Shown here: positions 5,089-28,804 of the stretch, piece by piece
Numbering within the stretch: position 1 is the stretch's first letter
Layout of the letters: the number at the start of each line of letters is the position of its first letter
Source of the DNA: Dehalococcoidia bacterium
GTDB taxonomy: Bacteria; Chloroflexota; Dehalococcoidia; Tepidiformales; Tepidiformaceae
NCBI GenBank assembly: GCA_022826585.1
Contig: JAJDUR010000079.1
Coordinates: 1-54,189 of the forward strand
DNA length: 54,189 bases
Reading direction: 5' to 3'
Notes under the pieces: generated by a model
Told to the model about the DNA's origin: nothing
Database searches by the model: none
Seen by the model: the letters and a program-made list of their open reading frames with translations, nothing else
Translations under genes and position numbers: made by a program

Positions 5089-7209
5089 GTGCCGGGAGAA
5101 CGTGGCGGCAAGGGCTGGCTCCGGTCCATCTGCTGCTACTGCGGCACGGGCTGCGGGATTCTGGCCCAGGCCCGCGATGGGGTGGTCACGAAGGTCAAGG
5201 GCGACCCGGACCACCCGGTGAACCGGGGTCGCCTCTGCGCGAAGGGCGCCCTGCTCCCCGCCATCTTCGAGTCAGAGGACCGCCTCCTGCGGCCGGCCAT
5301 CCGCGAGAGCAAGGGCGGCGCCCTCGCCCCAGCCTCCTGGGACGAGGCGATCGATCGTGTAGCCGGCGCCATCCGGTCGGCGGTGGAGCAGCACGGCCCT
5401 CACTCGGTCATGTTGTACGGCTCGGGGCAGTTCCACACGGAGGACTACTACCTCTTCGGCAAGCTCGCCAAGGGCTACATCGGGACCAACAACCAGGACA
5501 CGAACTCGCGCCTCTGCATGGCCAGCACGGTCGCCGCCTACAACCTCGCATTCGGCAGCGACTCGCCCCCGGCCTCCTTCGCGGACATCGAGCAGGCCAA
5601 CACGTTCCTCATCCTCGGGGCCAACATTGAGGCCTGCCACCCGATCCTGTTCGATCGCATCAAGGCGCGGAAGCGCCGTGGCGGCGATGACGTCAGGGTC
5701 ATCGTCGTGGACCCCCGTCGCACACGCACGGCGGAAATCGCCGACCTCTACCTGCCGGTCAAGCCGGGGACCGATGTCGCGCTCCTGCAATCCCTGCTCT
5801 TCGAGGTTCGGCTCGCGGGAGGCCTCGACGAAGCCTTCATCGCCGAGCACACGAACAGCTGGGACGAGGTGGCCGCTTCGCTCGCCGGGTGGTCCGCCGA
5901 GCGCGCTGCCGATCTCACCGGGCTGGCCGCGCAAGAGATCGTCGACGCCGCGCGGATCATCGCCTCGAACGGGCCCGTGCTCACGCTCTGGACCATGGGC
6001 GCGAGCCAGAGCACGTCAGGGGTCGACAAGAACCTCGCCCTGATCAACCTCTCGCTGGCGACGGGGAACATCGGCCGCCCCGGCGCCGGACCGTTCTCGC
6101 TCACGGGCCAGCCGAACGCGATGGGCGGTCGCGAGGCGGGCGGCCTCGCGCCTACCCTCCCCGGTCACCGCCTTGTCGCCGACGCTCAGGACCGAGCGGA
6201 CGTGGAGGCGGCCTGGGGGGTGGCCCCCGGGTCGATCGCCTCTCTTCCCGGGGTGACCGCCTCGGAGATGGTCGAGGCGCTGGAACGCGGTGAGTTGAAG
6301 GTCGTGTGGGTGGCCGCTACGAACCCCGTCGCCTCGCTTCCGAATAGCGAACGGGTACGCGCCGCCTTTGCGAAGGCCGAGCTGGTAGTCGTCCAGGACG
6401 CCTACCATCCAACGGAGACGGGCGAGCTGGCCGACGTCCTCCTGCCCGCAGCGCAGTGGTCCGAGCGCACCGGCACCATGACCAACAGCGAGCGCCGCAT
6501 CTGCCTCCTTGAGGCGGTCGGGGAAGCGCCCGGGGAGGCGCTTCCTGACTGGCAGATCATCAGCCGCGTGGCCGCCGCCCTCGGGTACGCCGAGGCGTTC
6601 TCGTACGGCGACGTCGAGGAGATCTTCGCCGAGTACCGGGAGTTCACACGGGGACAGGACCTCGACATCACGGGGGTCAGCTACGAGCTGCTGCGGGCCT
6701 CCTCGAGCGGCGTCCAGTGGCCCCTTCCCGAGGGAGGCCGCGAATTGCCCCGGCTCTTCGAGGGCGCGGCCTTCGCCACGCCGGATGGCCGCGCGCGCTT
6801 CCACGTGCCCACCTATCGGGAGCCCGACGACGCCCTGACCGAGGGCTATCCCCTCTCGCTCGTGACCGGGCGGGTGAAGGACCAGTGGCACACGATGACC
6901 CGCACGGGGAGCGTGCCCAAGCTCAACAAGAGTGAGGTTGAGCCCGTCGTTGAGATACATCCCGCGGATGCCCGCCCCCTGGGCATCCGCAACGGGCGGC
7001 CTCTGCGCGTCAGCTCACGGCGAGGCAGCTTCCAGGCCCGCGCGCGGGTCGACCGGACGGTGAGGCCGGGCACGGTCTGGGCGCCGTTCCACTGGGGCGC
7101 CCTGCACCACGTTGGAGGGCCCGTAAACGCCGTTACGAACGAGGCGTTCGACCCCCGTTCGAAGCAGCCGGAGCTGAAGTTCGCAGCCGTACGGGTGGAA
7201 CCGCTCTAG
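5089..7209 (+). CDS. narB: Assimilatory nitrate reductase catalytic subunit (Mo-bisMGD, 4Fe-4S)
   Basis: 706 aa molybdopterin oxidoreductase, the size of NarB/NasA enzymes. The N-terminal 4Fe-4S ligands are Cys15, Cys18, Cys22 and Cys50 (CCYCGTGC ... RLCAKG). The motif TNSRLCMAS places Cys143 where Nap/Nas-type enzymes ligate molybdenum. The C-terminal dinucleotide-binding domain is recognisable from GRVKDQWHTMTRTG to the end. No Tat signal is present, so the enzyme is cytoplasmic. The N-terminal FAD/NADH domain and the C-terminal 2Fe-2S domain found in some NasA proteins are absent, which suggests ferredoxin or flavodoxin as donor. GTG 5089 lies 6 nt after nirA. A cytoplasmic formate dehydrogenase is the main alternative; context argues against it. 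Confidence 0.85.
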   Translation: MPGERGGKGWLRSICCYCGTGCGILAQARDGVVTKVKGDPDHPVNRGRLCAKGALLPAIFESEDRLLRPAIRESKGGALAPASWDEAIDRVAGAIRSAVEQHGPHSVMLYGSGQFHTEDYYLFGKLAKGYIGTNNQDTNSRLCMASTVAAYNLAFGSDSPPASFADIEQANTFLILGANIEACHPILFDRIKARKRRGGDDVRVIVVDPRRTRTAEIADLYLPVKPGTDVALLQSLLFEVRLAGGLDEAFIAEHTNSWDEVAASLAGWSAERAADLTGLAAQEIVDAARIIASNGPVLTLWTMGASQSTSGVDKNLALINLSLATGNIGRPGAGPFSLTGQPNAMGGREAGGLAPTLPGHRLVADAQDRADVEAAWGVAPGSIASLPGVTASEMVEALERGELKVVWVAATNPVASLPNSERVRAAFAKAELVVVQDAYHPTETGELADVLLPAAQWSERTGTMTNSERRICLLEAVGEAPGEALPDWQIISRVAAALGYAEAFSYGDVEEIFAEYREFTRGQDLDITGVSYELLRASSSGVQWPLPEGGRELPRLFEGAAFATPDGRARFHVPTYREPDDALTEGYPLSLVTGRVKDQWHTMTRTGSVPKLNKSEVEPVVEIHPADARPLGIRNGRPLRVSSRRGSFQARARVDRTVRPGTVWAPFHWGALHHVGGPVNAVTNEAFDPRSKQPELKFAAVRVEPL

Positions 7210-11280: not shown

Positions 11281-12327
11281 GTGCTGAGCCGTCGGTCCAA
11301 CTTCCCCCGCCGGGGCCCCGTAAGCGAGCGGATCTTCGGCCGCGCCTACTCCGAGGCCGAACACGGGGGCACCTGGCTCGCCGCCGGGCTCTTCGCCATC
11401 GCCCTCTTCCTCTTTGTCGTCTCGCTCAGCGTTTACAACATCACCCAGCCCAATCGCGCGCAGACGCTCCTCGCGGCCGGCATCGCCTCCCTCACCGACA
11501 TCGACCGGACCCTGGAGAAGAACGTTCCCGCCCTGCGCGAGGAGGCCCGCGCCTCCTCCGCGGATAACCTCGAGGTGCCCGGCTACCCCCTCCCCGTCAC
11601 CCTCACCCGAGTCGAGGCCCTGACCGCCGACACTCCGACCATCCGCGCCCTCCTCCTCGATCGCTCCGCGAAGCTCGTCTACGCCACCGGCCTCGAGGCT
11701 TTCGACGAGACCGGTGAGCAGTCCTCGGATCTCCTCTCCATCTCCAGCGTCATCCGCGAGCTTGTCGGCTTCCTCACCGGCGATGCCCACGCGCGCGCCC
11801 GCTGGGTGGTGCTCGCCAGCCTCGTCGTCGCCACGGTCACGGGCGCCGCCACGCTCGCGCTCAACCGCGGCTTCGCCCGCTTCACCTCCTTCGGGTTGGC
11901 CGTGCTCCTCGCCTCCGCTCCCGGCTACCTCGTCGCCCGTGGCGGCACCTACCTGATCGACCGCTTCGGTTCCGACGACGCCTTCGTGATCGACCTGCAG
12001 GTCATCGTCCAGGCCATGCTCGATGTGCCCGAACGGAACTTCCTCATCACGGGCTCGCTCGGGCTCATCATCGCCGTCGCCGGCCGCGCGTTCGGCCTGA
12101 TCGCGAACCGCTTCTTCTCCGACGAGTCGCTCGACCCCCTGGCCTACGACACCGGCCCCGCCCTCCCCTTCACCGCCGTCCCAGGCCCCGCCCACGAGCA
12201 GTCCGATCGCGAAGGCATCCGCCTCTCCGCCCTGCCCGGCGTTTCCGGGCTGCTCGACCGGCTTCGCGCCTCCCCCGCCCCCGCGGAACCTGAACCCCGG
12301 CCCGGCCCCCGGGACGGAACGCCCTAG
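11281..12327 (+). CDS. Unknown multi-pass membrane protein
   Basis: 348 aa, not recognised. GTG 11281 is preceded by AGGGTGA about 5 nt upstream. It has one membrane helix at about 33-55, an extracytoplasmic domain of about 100 residues with several acidic stretches, then helices near 165-188, 196-218 and 248-268. The cytoplasmic tail is rich in proline and glycine. No enzyme motif was seen. It follows the RDD gene closely and its stop codon shares CTAG with the convergent endonuclease III gene. Confidence 0.6.
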   Translation: MLSRRSNFPRRGPVSERIFGRAYSEAEHGGTWLAAGLFAIALFLFVVSLSVYNITQPNRAQTLLAAGIASLTDIDRTLEKNVPALREEARASSADNLEVPGYPLPVTLTRVEALTADTPTIRALLLDRSAKLVYATGLEAFDETGEQSSDLLSISSVIRELVGFLTGDAHARARWVVLASLVVATVTGAATLALNRGFARFTSFGLAVLLASAPGYLVARGGTYLIDRFGSDDAFVIDLQVIVQAMLDVPERNFLITGSLGLIIAVAGRAFGLIANRFFSDESLDPLAYDTGPALPFTAVPGPAHEQSDREGIRLSALPGVSGLLDRLRASPAPAEPEPRPGPRDGTP

Positions 12328-12992
12328 CCGGCCGCCCCTGCCCCCGGCACGCTGCTTGGACACGCCGCCTGCAGCGGACAGGCCTCGCAGCGCGGCGCGC
12401 GCGAGGCGCACGTCCGCCGCCCGTGCTTGATGAGCAGCATGTGGAAGCGGTAGTACTCCTCCGGCGGCACGAGCGCCTCGAGCCGCTCGTGCGCCTGCTC
12501 CGCCGTCGTCTTCGGGGGAACGAGCCCCAGCCGCTTCGCCACGCGCTCGACGTGCGTGTCTACGGGCAGCGCCGGACGCCCCAGCGCGAACAGCAGCACG
12601 CAGGCTGCCGTCTTCGGCCCCACCCCCGGCAGCCCTCGCAGCCAGGCGCGCGCCTCCTCCAGCGGTTCCTCCTCCAGGAACGCGAGGTTCCAGTCTGGAG
12701 CCCGCTCGCGCACGGACTCCAGGATGCGCTGGATGCGCGGCGCCTTCTGCTGCGCCAGGCCGCCCGTCTGGATCGTCGCGATCAACTCGTCCAGCGGCGC
12801 CTCCGCGATCGCGTCCCAGTCCGGATAGCGCCGCATCAGCTGCACGAATGCACGGCCGCTGTTCTTGTCCGATGTGTTCTGCGAGAGCACCGTCAGCACC
12901 AGCTCCGCCACCGCGTCGCCGTGGGGGCGCGACACCGGCTCGCCGTACAGCTCGGCGAGCGCCGCCATGATCGTCTCCGGGTCGGGGGTCAC
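12324..12992 (-). CDS. nth: Endonuclease III (DNA glycosylase/AP lyase)
   Basis: 222 aa base-excision repair enzyme removing oxidised pyrimidines. The helix-hairpin-helix LPGVGPKTAACVL carries the catalytic lysine, and PVDTHVERVAKRLGL carries the catalytic aspartate. The C-terminal 4Fe-4S loop is complete: Cys-x6-Cys-x2-Cys-x5-Cys (CASRAPRCEACPLQAAC). The open frame extends upstream to 13058, but homologous sequence begins at the GTG at 12992, which has CAGAAT exactly 6 nt before it. The divergent selD starts 56 bp away. The last codon overlaps the stop of the membrane protein gene on the other strand. Confidence 0.88.
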   Translation of the reverse strand: MTPDPETIMAALAELYGEPVSRPHGDAVAELVLTVLSQNTSDKNSGRAFVQLMRRYPDWDAIAEAPLDELIATIQTGGLAQQKAPRIQRILESVRERAPDWNLAFLEEEPLEEARAWLRGLPGVGPKTAACVLLFALGRPALPVDTHVERVAKRLGLVPPKTTAEQAHERLEALVPPEEYYRFHMLLIKHGRRTCASRAPRCEACPLQAACPSSVPGAGAAG

Positions 12993-12998
12993 GGCGAC

Positions 12999-13004
12999 AT
13001 TCTG
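12999..13004 (-). promoter_or_regulatory. -10 box CAGAAT, 6 nt before nth start
   Basis: Minus-strand CAGAAT with a 6-nt gap to GTG 12992 and no Shine-Dalgarno. It is half of a compact divergent promoter region shared with selD. Confidence 0.5.
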
Positions 13005-13036
13005 GCACGCCCCGATCCCGCTACGCCTCCGTCCCT

Positions 13037-13042
13037 TACGAT
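13037..13042 (+). promoter_or_regulatory. -10 box TACGAT, 6 nt before selD start
   Basis: TACGAT followed by six pyrimidine-rich bases and GTG 13049. There is no Shine-Dalgarno. The box supports the selD start proposed here, which lies upstream of the in-frame TGA. Confidence 0.55.
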
Positions 13043-13048
13043 CCCCCT

Positions 13049-14098
13049 GTGACCGCACACGAGATCCGGCTCACCGATCTGACCGGCTGCGGCGGCTGAG
13101 CGTCCAAGGCGGGCCCCGAGGCCCTGGCGCAGGTTCTGTCGCCGCTGACCGACGCGTTCGACCCCGAAGCCCATCCCGACCTCCTCGCCGGGCTCGGGAC
13201 GCCCGACGATGCCGCCGTCTACCGCATCAACGCGCGGACCGCCGTCATCGCCACGGTCGACTTCTTCGCGCCGCTCGTCGACGATCCCTGGCAGTACGGC
13301 GCCATCGCCGCCGCCAACGCCATGTCCGACGTCTACGCGATGGGCGGCGAGGTCGTGCTCGCCCTCAACGTCGCCGCCTTCCCCGAGGACCTGCCGCCCG
13401 ATGTCGCCGCCGGGATCATCCGCGGGGGCGCCGACAAGGTTGCCGAGGGTGGAGGCGTCGTCGCCGGCGGCCACACCGTCTGGGATGAGGAGCCCAAGTA
13501 CGGCCTCAGCGTTCTCGGCCTCGCGAACCCCTCCCGCCTGCTCCGCAAGGCCGCCCTCCGCCCCGGCGACCGCCTCTACCTGACCAAGCCACTCGGTACC
13601 GGCGTCATCCTCTCCTCGACGGGCAGCGGTCGCGGCGACTCCGCCTGGCTCGACGCTGCCATCGAGTCGATGCTGCGCCTCAACCGCCACGCCGCCCACC
13701 TCGCCACCGGCCACCGCCTGCGCGCCGCCACCGACGTCACCGGCTTCGGCCTCCTCGGCCACCTCTGGGAGATGGTCGAGCGCTCCGGCGTGGCCGCCAA
13801 CATCGACGCGGACGCCCTCCCCCTCCTTCCCGGCGCGCTTGAATCCGCCGCCATGGACGCCCATACCGGCGGCGAGGGCCGCAACCGCGACTGGGTCGGC
13901 GACAACCTCATCGTCGGCCGGCGCGTCCCGCCCGAGCTCGCTGCCATCGCCTTCGACCCGCAGACCTCCGGCGGCCTCCTCCTCGCCTGCCCGGCCCGCA
14001 AGGCGAAGGCCCTCGAAGCCGCCTTCGCCGCCGACGCCGAACCCCTCCACCCCATCGGCCGCGTGGGCAAGGGCGAGCCGGGCATCACGCTCCGCTAG
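13049..14098 (+). CDS. selD: Selenophosphate synthetase SelD, probable selenoprotein (UGA = Sec17)
   Basis: Makes selenophosphate from selenide and ATP for selenocysteine or 2-selenouridine. From GTG 13049 the frame reads VTAHEIRLTDLTGCGG, then TGA at 13097-13099, then ASKAGPEAL and on without interruption to 14098 (349 aa counting Sec). The TGA falls where SelD proteins carry the catalytic Cys/Sec, just before the A-x-K motif. Downstream are the AIR-synthase-like ATP-binding features: DDAAVYRI, ATVDFFAPLVDDPWQYG, AANAMSDVYAMGG and GGHTVWDEEPKYGLSV. Ordinary gene finding would start at ATG 13322 and lose 91 residues. A hairpin follows the TGA. Full SelD length and motif continuity on both sides argue against a pseudogene. 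Confidence 0.85.
13100..13130 (+). promoter_or_regulatory. Candidate bacterial SECIS hairpin after selD UGA
   Basis: Starting one base after the TGA, a stem can be drawn: GCG 13100-13102 with CGC 13128-13130, CCA 13104-13106 with TGG 13125-13127, and GGGCC 13111-13115 with GGCCC 13120-13124. It has a bulged U at 13103, a four-base bulge at 13107-13110 and a CCGA loop. Position and size fit a bacterial SECIS, but the apical loop lacks the E. coli GGUCU signature. Folding was done by eye. Confidence 0.45.
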
Positions 14099-27127: not shown

Positions 27128-27478
27128 ATGGCGAAGATGATCCTGGTCGGGCTGGTCGAGCCCCCGACCCCCGAGGCCGACGAGCTGTTCCGCGAACGCT
27201 ACCTGGGCAACCACATCGAGGACATCGCGAACTGCCCCGGCTTCCTTTCCGGCACGGTCTACGAGCTGGAGCACCAGCACGACGACTTTCCCGTTGTCTC
27301 CCGCTTCCTCACCATCTACGAGCTCGAAGCGGACTCCTGGGAGGAGGCGAACGCCAACCTCCAGGCCTGGATCTCCGACCCCGACGCCTACCCCGGCCGC
27401 CTTTCCGGCGAGGGGGCGCTCTCCATCGTGGGCTCCGGCTGGTACAAGTTCGAGCGCGCCTACCACACGCGCGCCTGA
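27128..27478 (+). CDS. Dimeric alpha/beta-barrel (EthD/DUF-type) protein
   Basis: 116 aa ferredoxin-like fold. MAKMILVGLVEPPTPEADELFRERYLGNHIEDIANCPGF resembles dimeric alpha-beta barrel proteins in which a strand leads to an active-site His in a yy-x-x-H-ipd-like motif (here NHIEDI), followed by VVSRFLTIYELEADSWEEANANL. Such proteins include EthD-like oxidase helpers and small monooxygenases. The specific role is unknown. It is encoded 21 nt before an LLM oxidoreductase on the same strand, so the two may act on the same substrate. Confidence 0.7.
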   Translation: MAKMILVGLVEPPTPEADELFRERYLGNHIEDIANCPGFLSGTVYELEHQHDDFPVVSRFLTIYELEADSWEEANANLQAWISDPDAYPGRLSGEGALSIVGSGWYKFERAYHTRA

Positions 27479-27486
27479 GCGCGGGT

Positions 27487-27492
27487 TACGAT
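27487..27492 (+). promoter_or_regulatory. -10 box TACGAT, 7 nt before LLM gene start
   Basis: TACGAT, seven bases, ATG 27500. The box allows transcription separate from the preceding small gene. Confidence 0.45.
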
Positions 27493-27499
27493 TCCGCTC

Positions 27500-28804
27500 A
27501 TGCTCATCGGGTACTTCACCGAACGTCCCTACCAGGACCCCGGCGCCAGCTGGTGGGGAACCACCGGCCGCCGCCTCGTCGACCTCGACGCCAGCAACGA
27601 CGAGTACGACCCCGTCCTCGGCGCCGACCTCTACAACCGCTACATCGACGAGAAGCTCTACGCCGAGGAGATGGGCTTCGACGCCCTCGCCCTCAACGAG
27701 CACCACAGCACCCCCTTCTGCATGGGCAGCGCCTGCAACGTCGAGGCCTCGATCCTCGCGCGTGTCACCAACCGCGCGAAGATCGTCCTCATCGGCAACA
27801 TCCTGCCCATCTGGGACGACCCCCTCTGGCTGGCCGAAGAGCTGGCCATGATCGACCTCATCTCCGAGGGCCGGCTCGTGACCGGCTGGGTGCGCGGCAC
27901 CGGACGCGAGAGCATCTCCCACGACGCCAACCCGCCCTACAACTGGGAGCGATTCCAGGAGGCGCACGACCTGATCGTGGCCGCCTGGACTCGGGACGGC
28001 CCCTTCCGCTGGGAGGGCGAGCACTACAACTTCCGCTACGTGAACCCCTGGGCCCGCCCCTACCAGTCTCCCCATCCCCTCATCATGATCCCCGGCGCTG
28101 TCAGCCGCCGAACGGTCCAGTGGGCAGCCCAGCGCCGCTACCCCTACGTCATGCTCGCAACCCGCCTGGAGCCCACGCGCATGTCCTTCGAGTACTACGA
28201 CGAATGCGCCGCCGAGAACGGCTACGAGGCTGGCCCCCAGCACCGCGGCTACCTCTTCAAGGTGCACGTCGACGAGACCGAGGAGCTCGCCGAGGAGGTC
28301 GGCCGCAAGTACCTGACCGGTCCCGGCAACATCTTCCTCGAAGGCAGCCGTGGCGACGCGAGGGGCCATCTCCAGAACCTGCCCGGCCTCACCGATCGCC
28401 GCGCCCTCCTCCCCACCGGCGGCGTCCGGCAGGTGGCCGAAGCCCGCGGCCAGGCCACCCCCAACGACCCCGACCTCCGCCCCATCGCCCTCGACTCCGC
28501 CGAGTCCTACCGAAACGTCGACGACACCTACAAGGGGCTCGTCGAGGCGCAGTCCATCATCACGGGCACTCCGAAGACCGTCCTCCCCAAGATCCGCAAC
28601 GTGCTCGAATACCTGCGCCCCGGCAGCATCTTCCTCTGGGACGGCGACGGCTCCATGTCGCACGAAGACGCCATGCGCAGCCTTCGGCTGATGGGCGAAG
28701 AGGTCCTGCCCGCCGTCCGCGAGATGGGTGAGGAGCTCGGGCTCGACAGCCCCTTCGAAGTCGACCCCGCCACCAACGAGCCGGCCGCTTCCGCCCCCCA
28801 GTAG
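27500..28804 (+). CDS. LLM-class flavin- or F420-dependent oxidoreductase
   Basis: 434 aa, bacterial-luciferase-like monooxygenase fold. Visible features: the N-terminal strand MLIGYFTERPYQ, then EEMGFDALALNEHHSTPF with the glutamate-His-His of the family, ILARVTNRAKIVLIGNILPIWDDPLWLAEELAMIDLISEGRLVTGWVRGTGRES, which is the standard LLM core, and a late GTPKTVLPKIRNVLEYLRPG. The family includes FMNH2-dependent monooxygenases and F420 enzymes; the sequence does not settle the cofactor. It is longer than average, with an insertion around residues 255-340. It converges on the dppC2 gene with only 3 bp between the stops. Confidence 0.85.
   Translation: MLIGYFTERPYQDPGASWWGTTGRRLVDLDASNDEYDPVLGADLYNRYIDEKLYAEEMGFDALALNEHHSTPFCMGSACNVEASILARVTNRAKIVLIGNILPIWDDPLWLAEELAMIDLISEGRLVTGWVRGTGRESISHDANPPYNWERFQEAHDLIVAAWTRDGPFRWEGEHYNFRYVNPWARPYQSPHPLIMIPGAVSRRTVQWAAQRRYPYVMLATRLEPTRMSFEYYDECAAENGYEAGPQHRGYLFKVHVDETEELAEEVGRKYLTGPGNIFLEGSRGDARGHLQNLPGLTDRRALLPTGGVRQVAEARGQATPNDPDLRPIALDSAESYRNVDDTYKGLVEAQSIITGTPKTVLPKIRNVLEYLRPGSIFLWDGDGSMSHEDAMRSLRLMGEEVLPAVREMGEELGLDSPFEVDPATNEPAASAPQ

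Follow-up and report, generated by a model that had tools for sequence, protein, structure and literature searches.

Does the in-frame TGA near the start of a selD gene in a Dehalococcoidia bacterium interrupt that gene, or does it encode a selenocysteine (Sec) in a longer protein? The gene lies within a stretch of 54,189 nucleotides which was analysed as a whole and is referred to here as the window. An initial annotation of this DNA had proposed that selD was hidden by the TGA, with a complete SelD N-terminus from GTG 13049, a TGA at the position of the catalytic Cys or Sec, and an ordinary frame starting only at 13322 and lacking the catalytic loop. The evidence now favours, with a probability of about 97%, a SelD that is itself a selenoprotein, in which UGA codon 17 is read as Sec by way of SelB and a hairpin, probably on a leaderless mRNA.

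The frame opens with GTG (13049–13051, plus strand), closes with TAG (14096–14098) and has one interruption, the TGA at 13097–13099. As codon 17 this is the sole codon of 13049–14098 which has to be read otherwise than by the standard code. Read-through would yield a selenide, water dikinase of 349 amino acids with Sec at position 17 (U17). Over residues 7–318 this protein scores 343 bits with the SelD profile TIGR00476, for which the cut-off is 125, and AIRS and AIRS_C domains are found in it. It is homologous over its whole length (E 1.5e-64) to the SelD chain 3u0o, which we take to be the E. coli enzyme, the database entry naming the molecule alone. In the alignment, U17 stands opposite Cys17 of the GAGCGCK loop of 3u0o and K20 opposite K20; Cys/Sec17 and Lys20 are presumably the catalytic residues of the loop. 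The standard code gives an ORF of 258 amino acids from ATG 13322 (13322–14098, plus strand), which lies in the same frame, is no separate gene and lacks the catalytic loop. The profile match, the alignment and the ORF listing thus uphold the earlier description of the frame on each of these points.

A search for SelD in 99 genomes, including the window's own, returned 68 places at E <= 1.2e-67. Exactly one internal TGA is present in 65 of these; the three without one are in G024, G068 and G031, the last being a fragment which lacks the N-terminus. Codon 17 was read in 44 loci, which reduce to 34 distinct sequences as two sets of loci overlap. The codon is TGA in 33 of these and TGC, for Cys, in the remaining one. 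Identity to the window is 80–100% for ten of the sequences, counting that of the window itself. The TGA is still present in the most distant loci read, at 46–47% identity, from records titled Deltaproteobacteria bacterium and Candidatus Binatus soli. The 14 loci of one set of relatives come mostly from records titled Dehalococcoidia, Chloroflexi, Chloroflexota, Tepidiformaceae or Anaerolinea, and from their names we take several to be derived from sponge metagenomes. The one locus with TGC is L057, from G024. It shares 62% identity with the window, and its CGGCASK, which aligns with the window's CGG-U-ASK, places a Cys opposite U17 and keeps the Lys; a swap of this kind between Cys and Sec is what one expects in a family of selenoproteins.

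The loop itself had been described as unusual, partly on the ground that it departs from the GAGCGCK of the E. coli type. The departure is real, but it is no sign of an unusual motif, since CGG-U-ASK is the rule in the family of the window's SelD among the distinct loci read at the codon. Five SelD genes were also read from plasmid records. Four have Cys at the site, in the loops GAGCGSK, GGGCACK (two) and GGGCGCK, and the fifth, from Photobacterium, has TGA in the loop AG-TGA-AAK. On these few records from outside the family, the contrast with the E. coli loop looks like the ordinary difference between Sec-type and Cys-type enzymes.

The genome encodes the machinery that Sec decoding calls for, as the initial annotation had anticipated in placing SelA, SelB and SelC elsewhere in it. 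Profile and tRNA searches located selA on contig C93 (518 bits, cut-off 268), selB on C73 (293 bits, cut-off 242, with a C-terminal match in the same frame) and tRNA-Sec, the product of selC, on C25 (71 bits, Rfam gathering score 47). ARAGORN names this last gene tRNA-SeC(tca), with anticodon TCA. Together with selD these genes occupy four different contigs of a draft assembly of 127 contigs, 94% complete and with 5% contamination. Among 38 genomes of the family, SelD is found in 29 and was not matched in nine (G020, G021, G022, G023, G028, G032, G034, G036 and G037). SelB exceeds its cut-off in 27 of the 29 genomes with SelD (not in G011 or G019) as against none of the nine without. For tRNA-Sec the corresponding figures are 28 of 29 (not in G010) and none of nine at scores above 60 bits, a line set after the match list had been viewed and subsequently supported by the ARAGORN calls. 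The three genomes which each fall short of threshold for one Sec component are 77–86% complete.

Matches of 47–50 bits to tRNA-Sec, over the Rfam threshold, occur in six of the nine genomes without SelD (G020, G028, G032, G034, G036 and G037), and ARAGORN identifies all six as tRNA-Ser(gct), as it does an extra match of 47.7 bits in G027. The tRNA-Ser(gct) genes of this family (loci L112–L118) thus pass the gathering score for tRNA-Sec and are false positives in counts of that tRNA. In G024 the Cys-type SelD lies near tRNA-Sec and selB on one contig (L076, G024:C4:156001-175000), a cluster which was perhaps acquired laterally.

Shortly after the TGA the sequence can fold into a GC-rich hairpin like those of bacterial SECIS elements, GGGCC-CCGA-GGCCC (13111–13124, plus strand), in which 13111–13115 pair with 13120–13124. 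An alternative register pairs 13112–13116 with 13120–13124, leaving the loop CGA and one C-C mismatch, and in many relatives the form is GGGGCC-NGA-GGCCC(U). The sole Cys homologue, L057, is without the hairpin. A published model of bacterial SECIS elements places the apical loop 16–37 nt after the UGA, with a G in the first two loop positions (PMC13188914). In the window's selD the distance from TGA to loop is 16 nt, within that range; the apical loop lies at 15–17 nt in 21 of 26 distinct sequences (at 15 in three) and at 19–23 nt in the other five. As to the G, the MFE loop CCGA has it in third place while the CGA of the alternative register agrees with the model, as do 12 of the 26 sequences by MFE.

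Constraint on the nucleotide sequence is strong in this region. Across codons 18–33, a stretch picked after the hairpin had been seen, synonymous-codon identity is 0.649, whereas the 300 16-codon windows farther along the gene average 0.464 and do not exceed 0.568. The comparison used 24 SelD sequences from the 33 TGA loci, the nine excluded being 80–95% identical to the window, and none of 20,000 random draws of positions reached 0.649. When 12-codon windows along the entire gene are ranked, which does not depend on that choice of codons, each of the top twelve begins at one of codons 14–26. Synonymous identity at codons 24–28, 30 and 31 is 0.76–1.0. The hairpin sits inside the most synonymously constrained stretch of selD.

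The evidence for the structure as such is of a different order. The folding energy of the window's own hairpin is no better than chance (z = -0.09 with dinucleotide shuffling, -0.78 and -0.46). When synonymous codons were redrawn, 25 of the 26 sequences, which are related to one another, folded better than the mean, though with an average gain of only 1.05 standard deviations. Covariation is weak, the sequences being too alike: one pair shows a compensatory change (U-A for G-C) in two sequences, or in one in a second analysis. Covariation rises (two pairs, four cells) when the partners are slid by +1, and RNAalifold chose another, weak fold over the hairpin. An Rfam search of the window returned nothing at gathering scores. 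Of the 28 matches to E = 10 that a covariance model of the SelD region produced in 14 sources, one was SelD (75 bits) and the other 27 were weak; none at the remaining selenoprotein candidates was convincing. The best of the weak matches (20.6 bits, in selB of G024) was rejected as a SECIS element, being explained by coding similarity (TLAQV). The hairpin which had been noted directly after the TGA is thus present in a constrained region, with unexceptional folding energy and weak covariation, and as an RNA structure it is plausible.

The initial annotation had further suggested a search for other Sec proteins, and ten more genes with an internal TGA were found in the genome. They comprise four of 11 AhpC-TSA matches, one of two Rdx/SelW-like matches and five of nine CMD/AhpD-like matches, on contigs C11, C126, C74 (two), C97, C25, C14, C69 (two) and C34 (loci L084–L087 and L094–L098). 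Their TGA sites are FTGGU, EWUPFC, SWUGC (two copies), YCVPU, CRYU, CGYU, CDFU (two) and CFTU. By a reading of these motifs all ten would be at catalytic Cys positions, which argues that this genome decodes UGA as Sec. The candidates are peroxiredoxin-like, ResA-like, SelW-like (TIGR02174) and, in five cases, AhpD-like (PF02627), and with SelD they number 11. Counterparts of the best-scoring TGA peroxiredoxin (C11) and of the TGA SelW-like gene, each containing one TGA, occur in all nine genomes of the genus. These candidates resemble selD in having a TGA in place of a catalytic Cys and a hairpin downstream, but they differ from it in being other enzymes. Their hairpin loops lie at 16–29 nt, a distance partly imposed by confining the search to loops 14–38 nt downstream, and have a G in the first two bases in nine of ten cases. 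Among the nine candidates scanned against NCBIfam, the SelT/W/H model was matched over its cut-off; the WAxxUGC ResA-like model (NF041054) reached 260 bits against 300, and the thiol peroxidase, SelL-related, YciW-related (seleno)protein and AhpD models were likewise matched below theirs. In six candidate loci a tRNA was all that Rfam reported.

A codon-score scan for read-through genes, covering the window and L076–L079, listed five candidates. The best, at 27476 in the window, was rejected as two neighbouring genes in one frame, and the other four looked to be of low complexity or in the wrong frame. SelD was not among the five, so the scan is insensitive and its silence proves nothing.

Three other accounts of the locus have to be weighed against a Sec-containing SelD. 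In a draft metagenome assembly an in-frame stop is commonly an error or a mark of decay, and with TGC at codon 17 in one relative it might be supposed that the TGA is a nonsense mutation in a dead gene, or a misread TGC or TGT in a gene which is really of the Cys type. Such a history is very improbable for a codon common to separately assembled genomes, found in all but one of the distinct loci down to 46% identity and occurring once in 65 of 68 SelD places; the reading frame continues unbroken beyond it, in a genome which has the machinery for Sec. The two grounds on which the initial annotation would have given up its reading, a missing selB or selC and a base error in the TGA, are both contradicted by these findings. 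That the TGA is decoded otherwise than as Sec, whether as Trp through a change of code or by plain read-through, found no supporting point and is scarcely credible. The codon occupies the catalytic Cys position, tRNA-Sec and SelB co-occur with SelD, and where other TGA codons were read, their sites were of the CxxU, UxxC or peroxiredoxin type. Moreover, TGA seems to be an ordinary stop elsewhere in the window, as at 27476, between two genes in one frame.

The third account takes the ORF from ATG 13322, which is what the standard code gives in this frame, as the real product and the part upstream as a remnant. Yet the 91 residues ahead of that ATG are conserved at the protein level, the codons after the TGA are constrained, and the short form would be a SelD without its catalytic loop; there is very little to be said for it. 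A SelD with Sec at position 17 remains by far the best explanation.

The start of the gene has features of a leaderless transcript. A -10-like (TANNNT) box, TACGAT (13037–13042, plus strand), ends 6 nt before GTG 13049, as the initial annotation had observed, and it is conserved: in 25 of the 34 distinct SelD loci TANNNT precedes an in-frame start by 6–7 nt, and in two more by 8–9 nt. As background, the motif was found 5–8 nt before ATG or GTG in 13 of 1251 and 6 of 1590 cases on the two strands of the window. Seven of the 34 loci are without the box, three of these having a Shine-Dalgarno-like match, and a scan for two-hexamer sigma-70 promoters gave no match. A TANNNT motif about 12 bp upstream of the start has been described as a mark of leaderless bacterial genes, with four of 12 Chloroflexi genomes in this category (PMC3160421). 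The selD mRNA is thus likely to be leaderless, beginning at or beside GTG 13049. An endonuclease III-like ORF, recognised by eye (12324–13058, minus strand), diverges from selD, and the two starts share a short region. Another gene of the window (in 27476–28804) is likely to be leaderless too: it begins at ATG 27500, looks luciferase-like on inspection, and is preceded by TTACGAT at a distance of 7 nt.

By analogy with the known bacterial pathway we infer that Sec is inserted through SelB and the hairpin, the latter acting as a SECIS element. Transcription would proceed from TACGAT, and on the resulting mRNA SelB bound to the hairpin just downstream would bring Sec-tRNA-Sec to UGA codon 17, where the ribosome would read through instead of stopping. 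Sec17 would then form the catalytic loop with Lys20, and this loop would make selenophosphate from selenide and ATP for use by SelA. A catalytic role for Sec in the SelD loop is stated in the literature (PMC13188914). Because the TGA sits in selD itself, production of SelD would need Sec just as production of Sec needs SelD; any regulatory effect of this feedback is a matter for speculation. Sec-containing SelD is well known in bacteria (SelD-Sec/SPS2), and the window's protein agrees with it in family, in the position of the loop, in having a UGA with a downstream stem-loop and in the accompanying SelA, SelB and tRNA-Sec. It differs only in details of sequence, the CGG-U-ASK loop and the probably leaderless mRNA with its GTG start. 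E. coli-type SelD (3u0o), homologous throughout, has Cys where the window's protein probably has Sec. As a single gene, the window's selD is biologically ordinary and adds one more case.

The company it keeps is of wider interest. In the 38 family genomes no internal stop was present among the formate dehydrogenase alpha matches listed; the window itself holds a formate dehydrogenase/assimilatory nitrate reductase-like molybdopterin enzyme (5089–7209; TIGR01591, 559 bits, cut-off 666), which is without a TGA. SelU is absent from all 38 genomes, in a search whose control matched seven of 14 named genomes including E. coli, and this agrees with its reported absence from Chloroflexi, for which three selenoproteins in three families were counted in 2006 (PMC1794560). 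From these two absences it had been considered that SelD might be the genome's only selenoprotein, in a closed loop, an idea rejected once the peroxiredoxin-like, SelW-like and AhpD-like TGA genes were found. Selenoproteins of the Prx-like, SelW-like, AhpD-like and CMD-like types are already known, and aerobic bacteria rarely retain selenoproteins (PMC13188914). The titles and opening lines of abstracts searched contained no report of a selenoprotein-rich lineage of Chloroflexota.

For annotation, the standard code reduces this SelD to 258 amino acids without the catalytic loop, and the other selenoprotein candidates of the lineage would likewise be cut short or missed. A set of 11 candidates from the few families tried, with no SelU and no TGA among the listed matches of the formate dehydrogenase type, would make the lineage helpful in studying what maintains the Sec trait where formate dehydrogenase is not what maintains it. 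It is tentatively proposed, at somewhat less than even odds, that the family is an undescribed, selenoprotein-rich lineage of Chloroflexota in which thiol-redox enzymes (Prx-like, ResA-like, SelW-like and fivefold AhpD-like), and not formate dehydrogenase, may keep the Sec trait, with SelD on its leaderless mRNA as a self-dependent gatekeeper.
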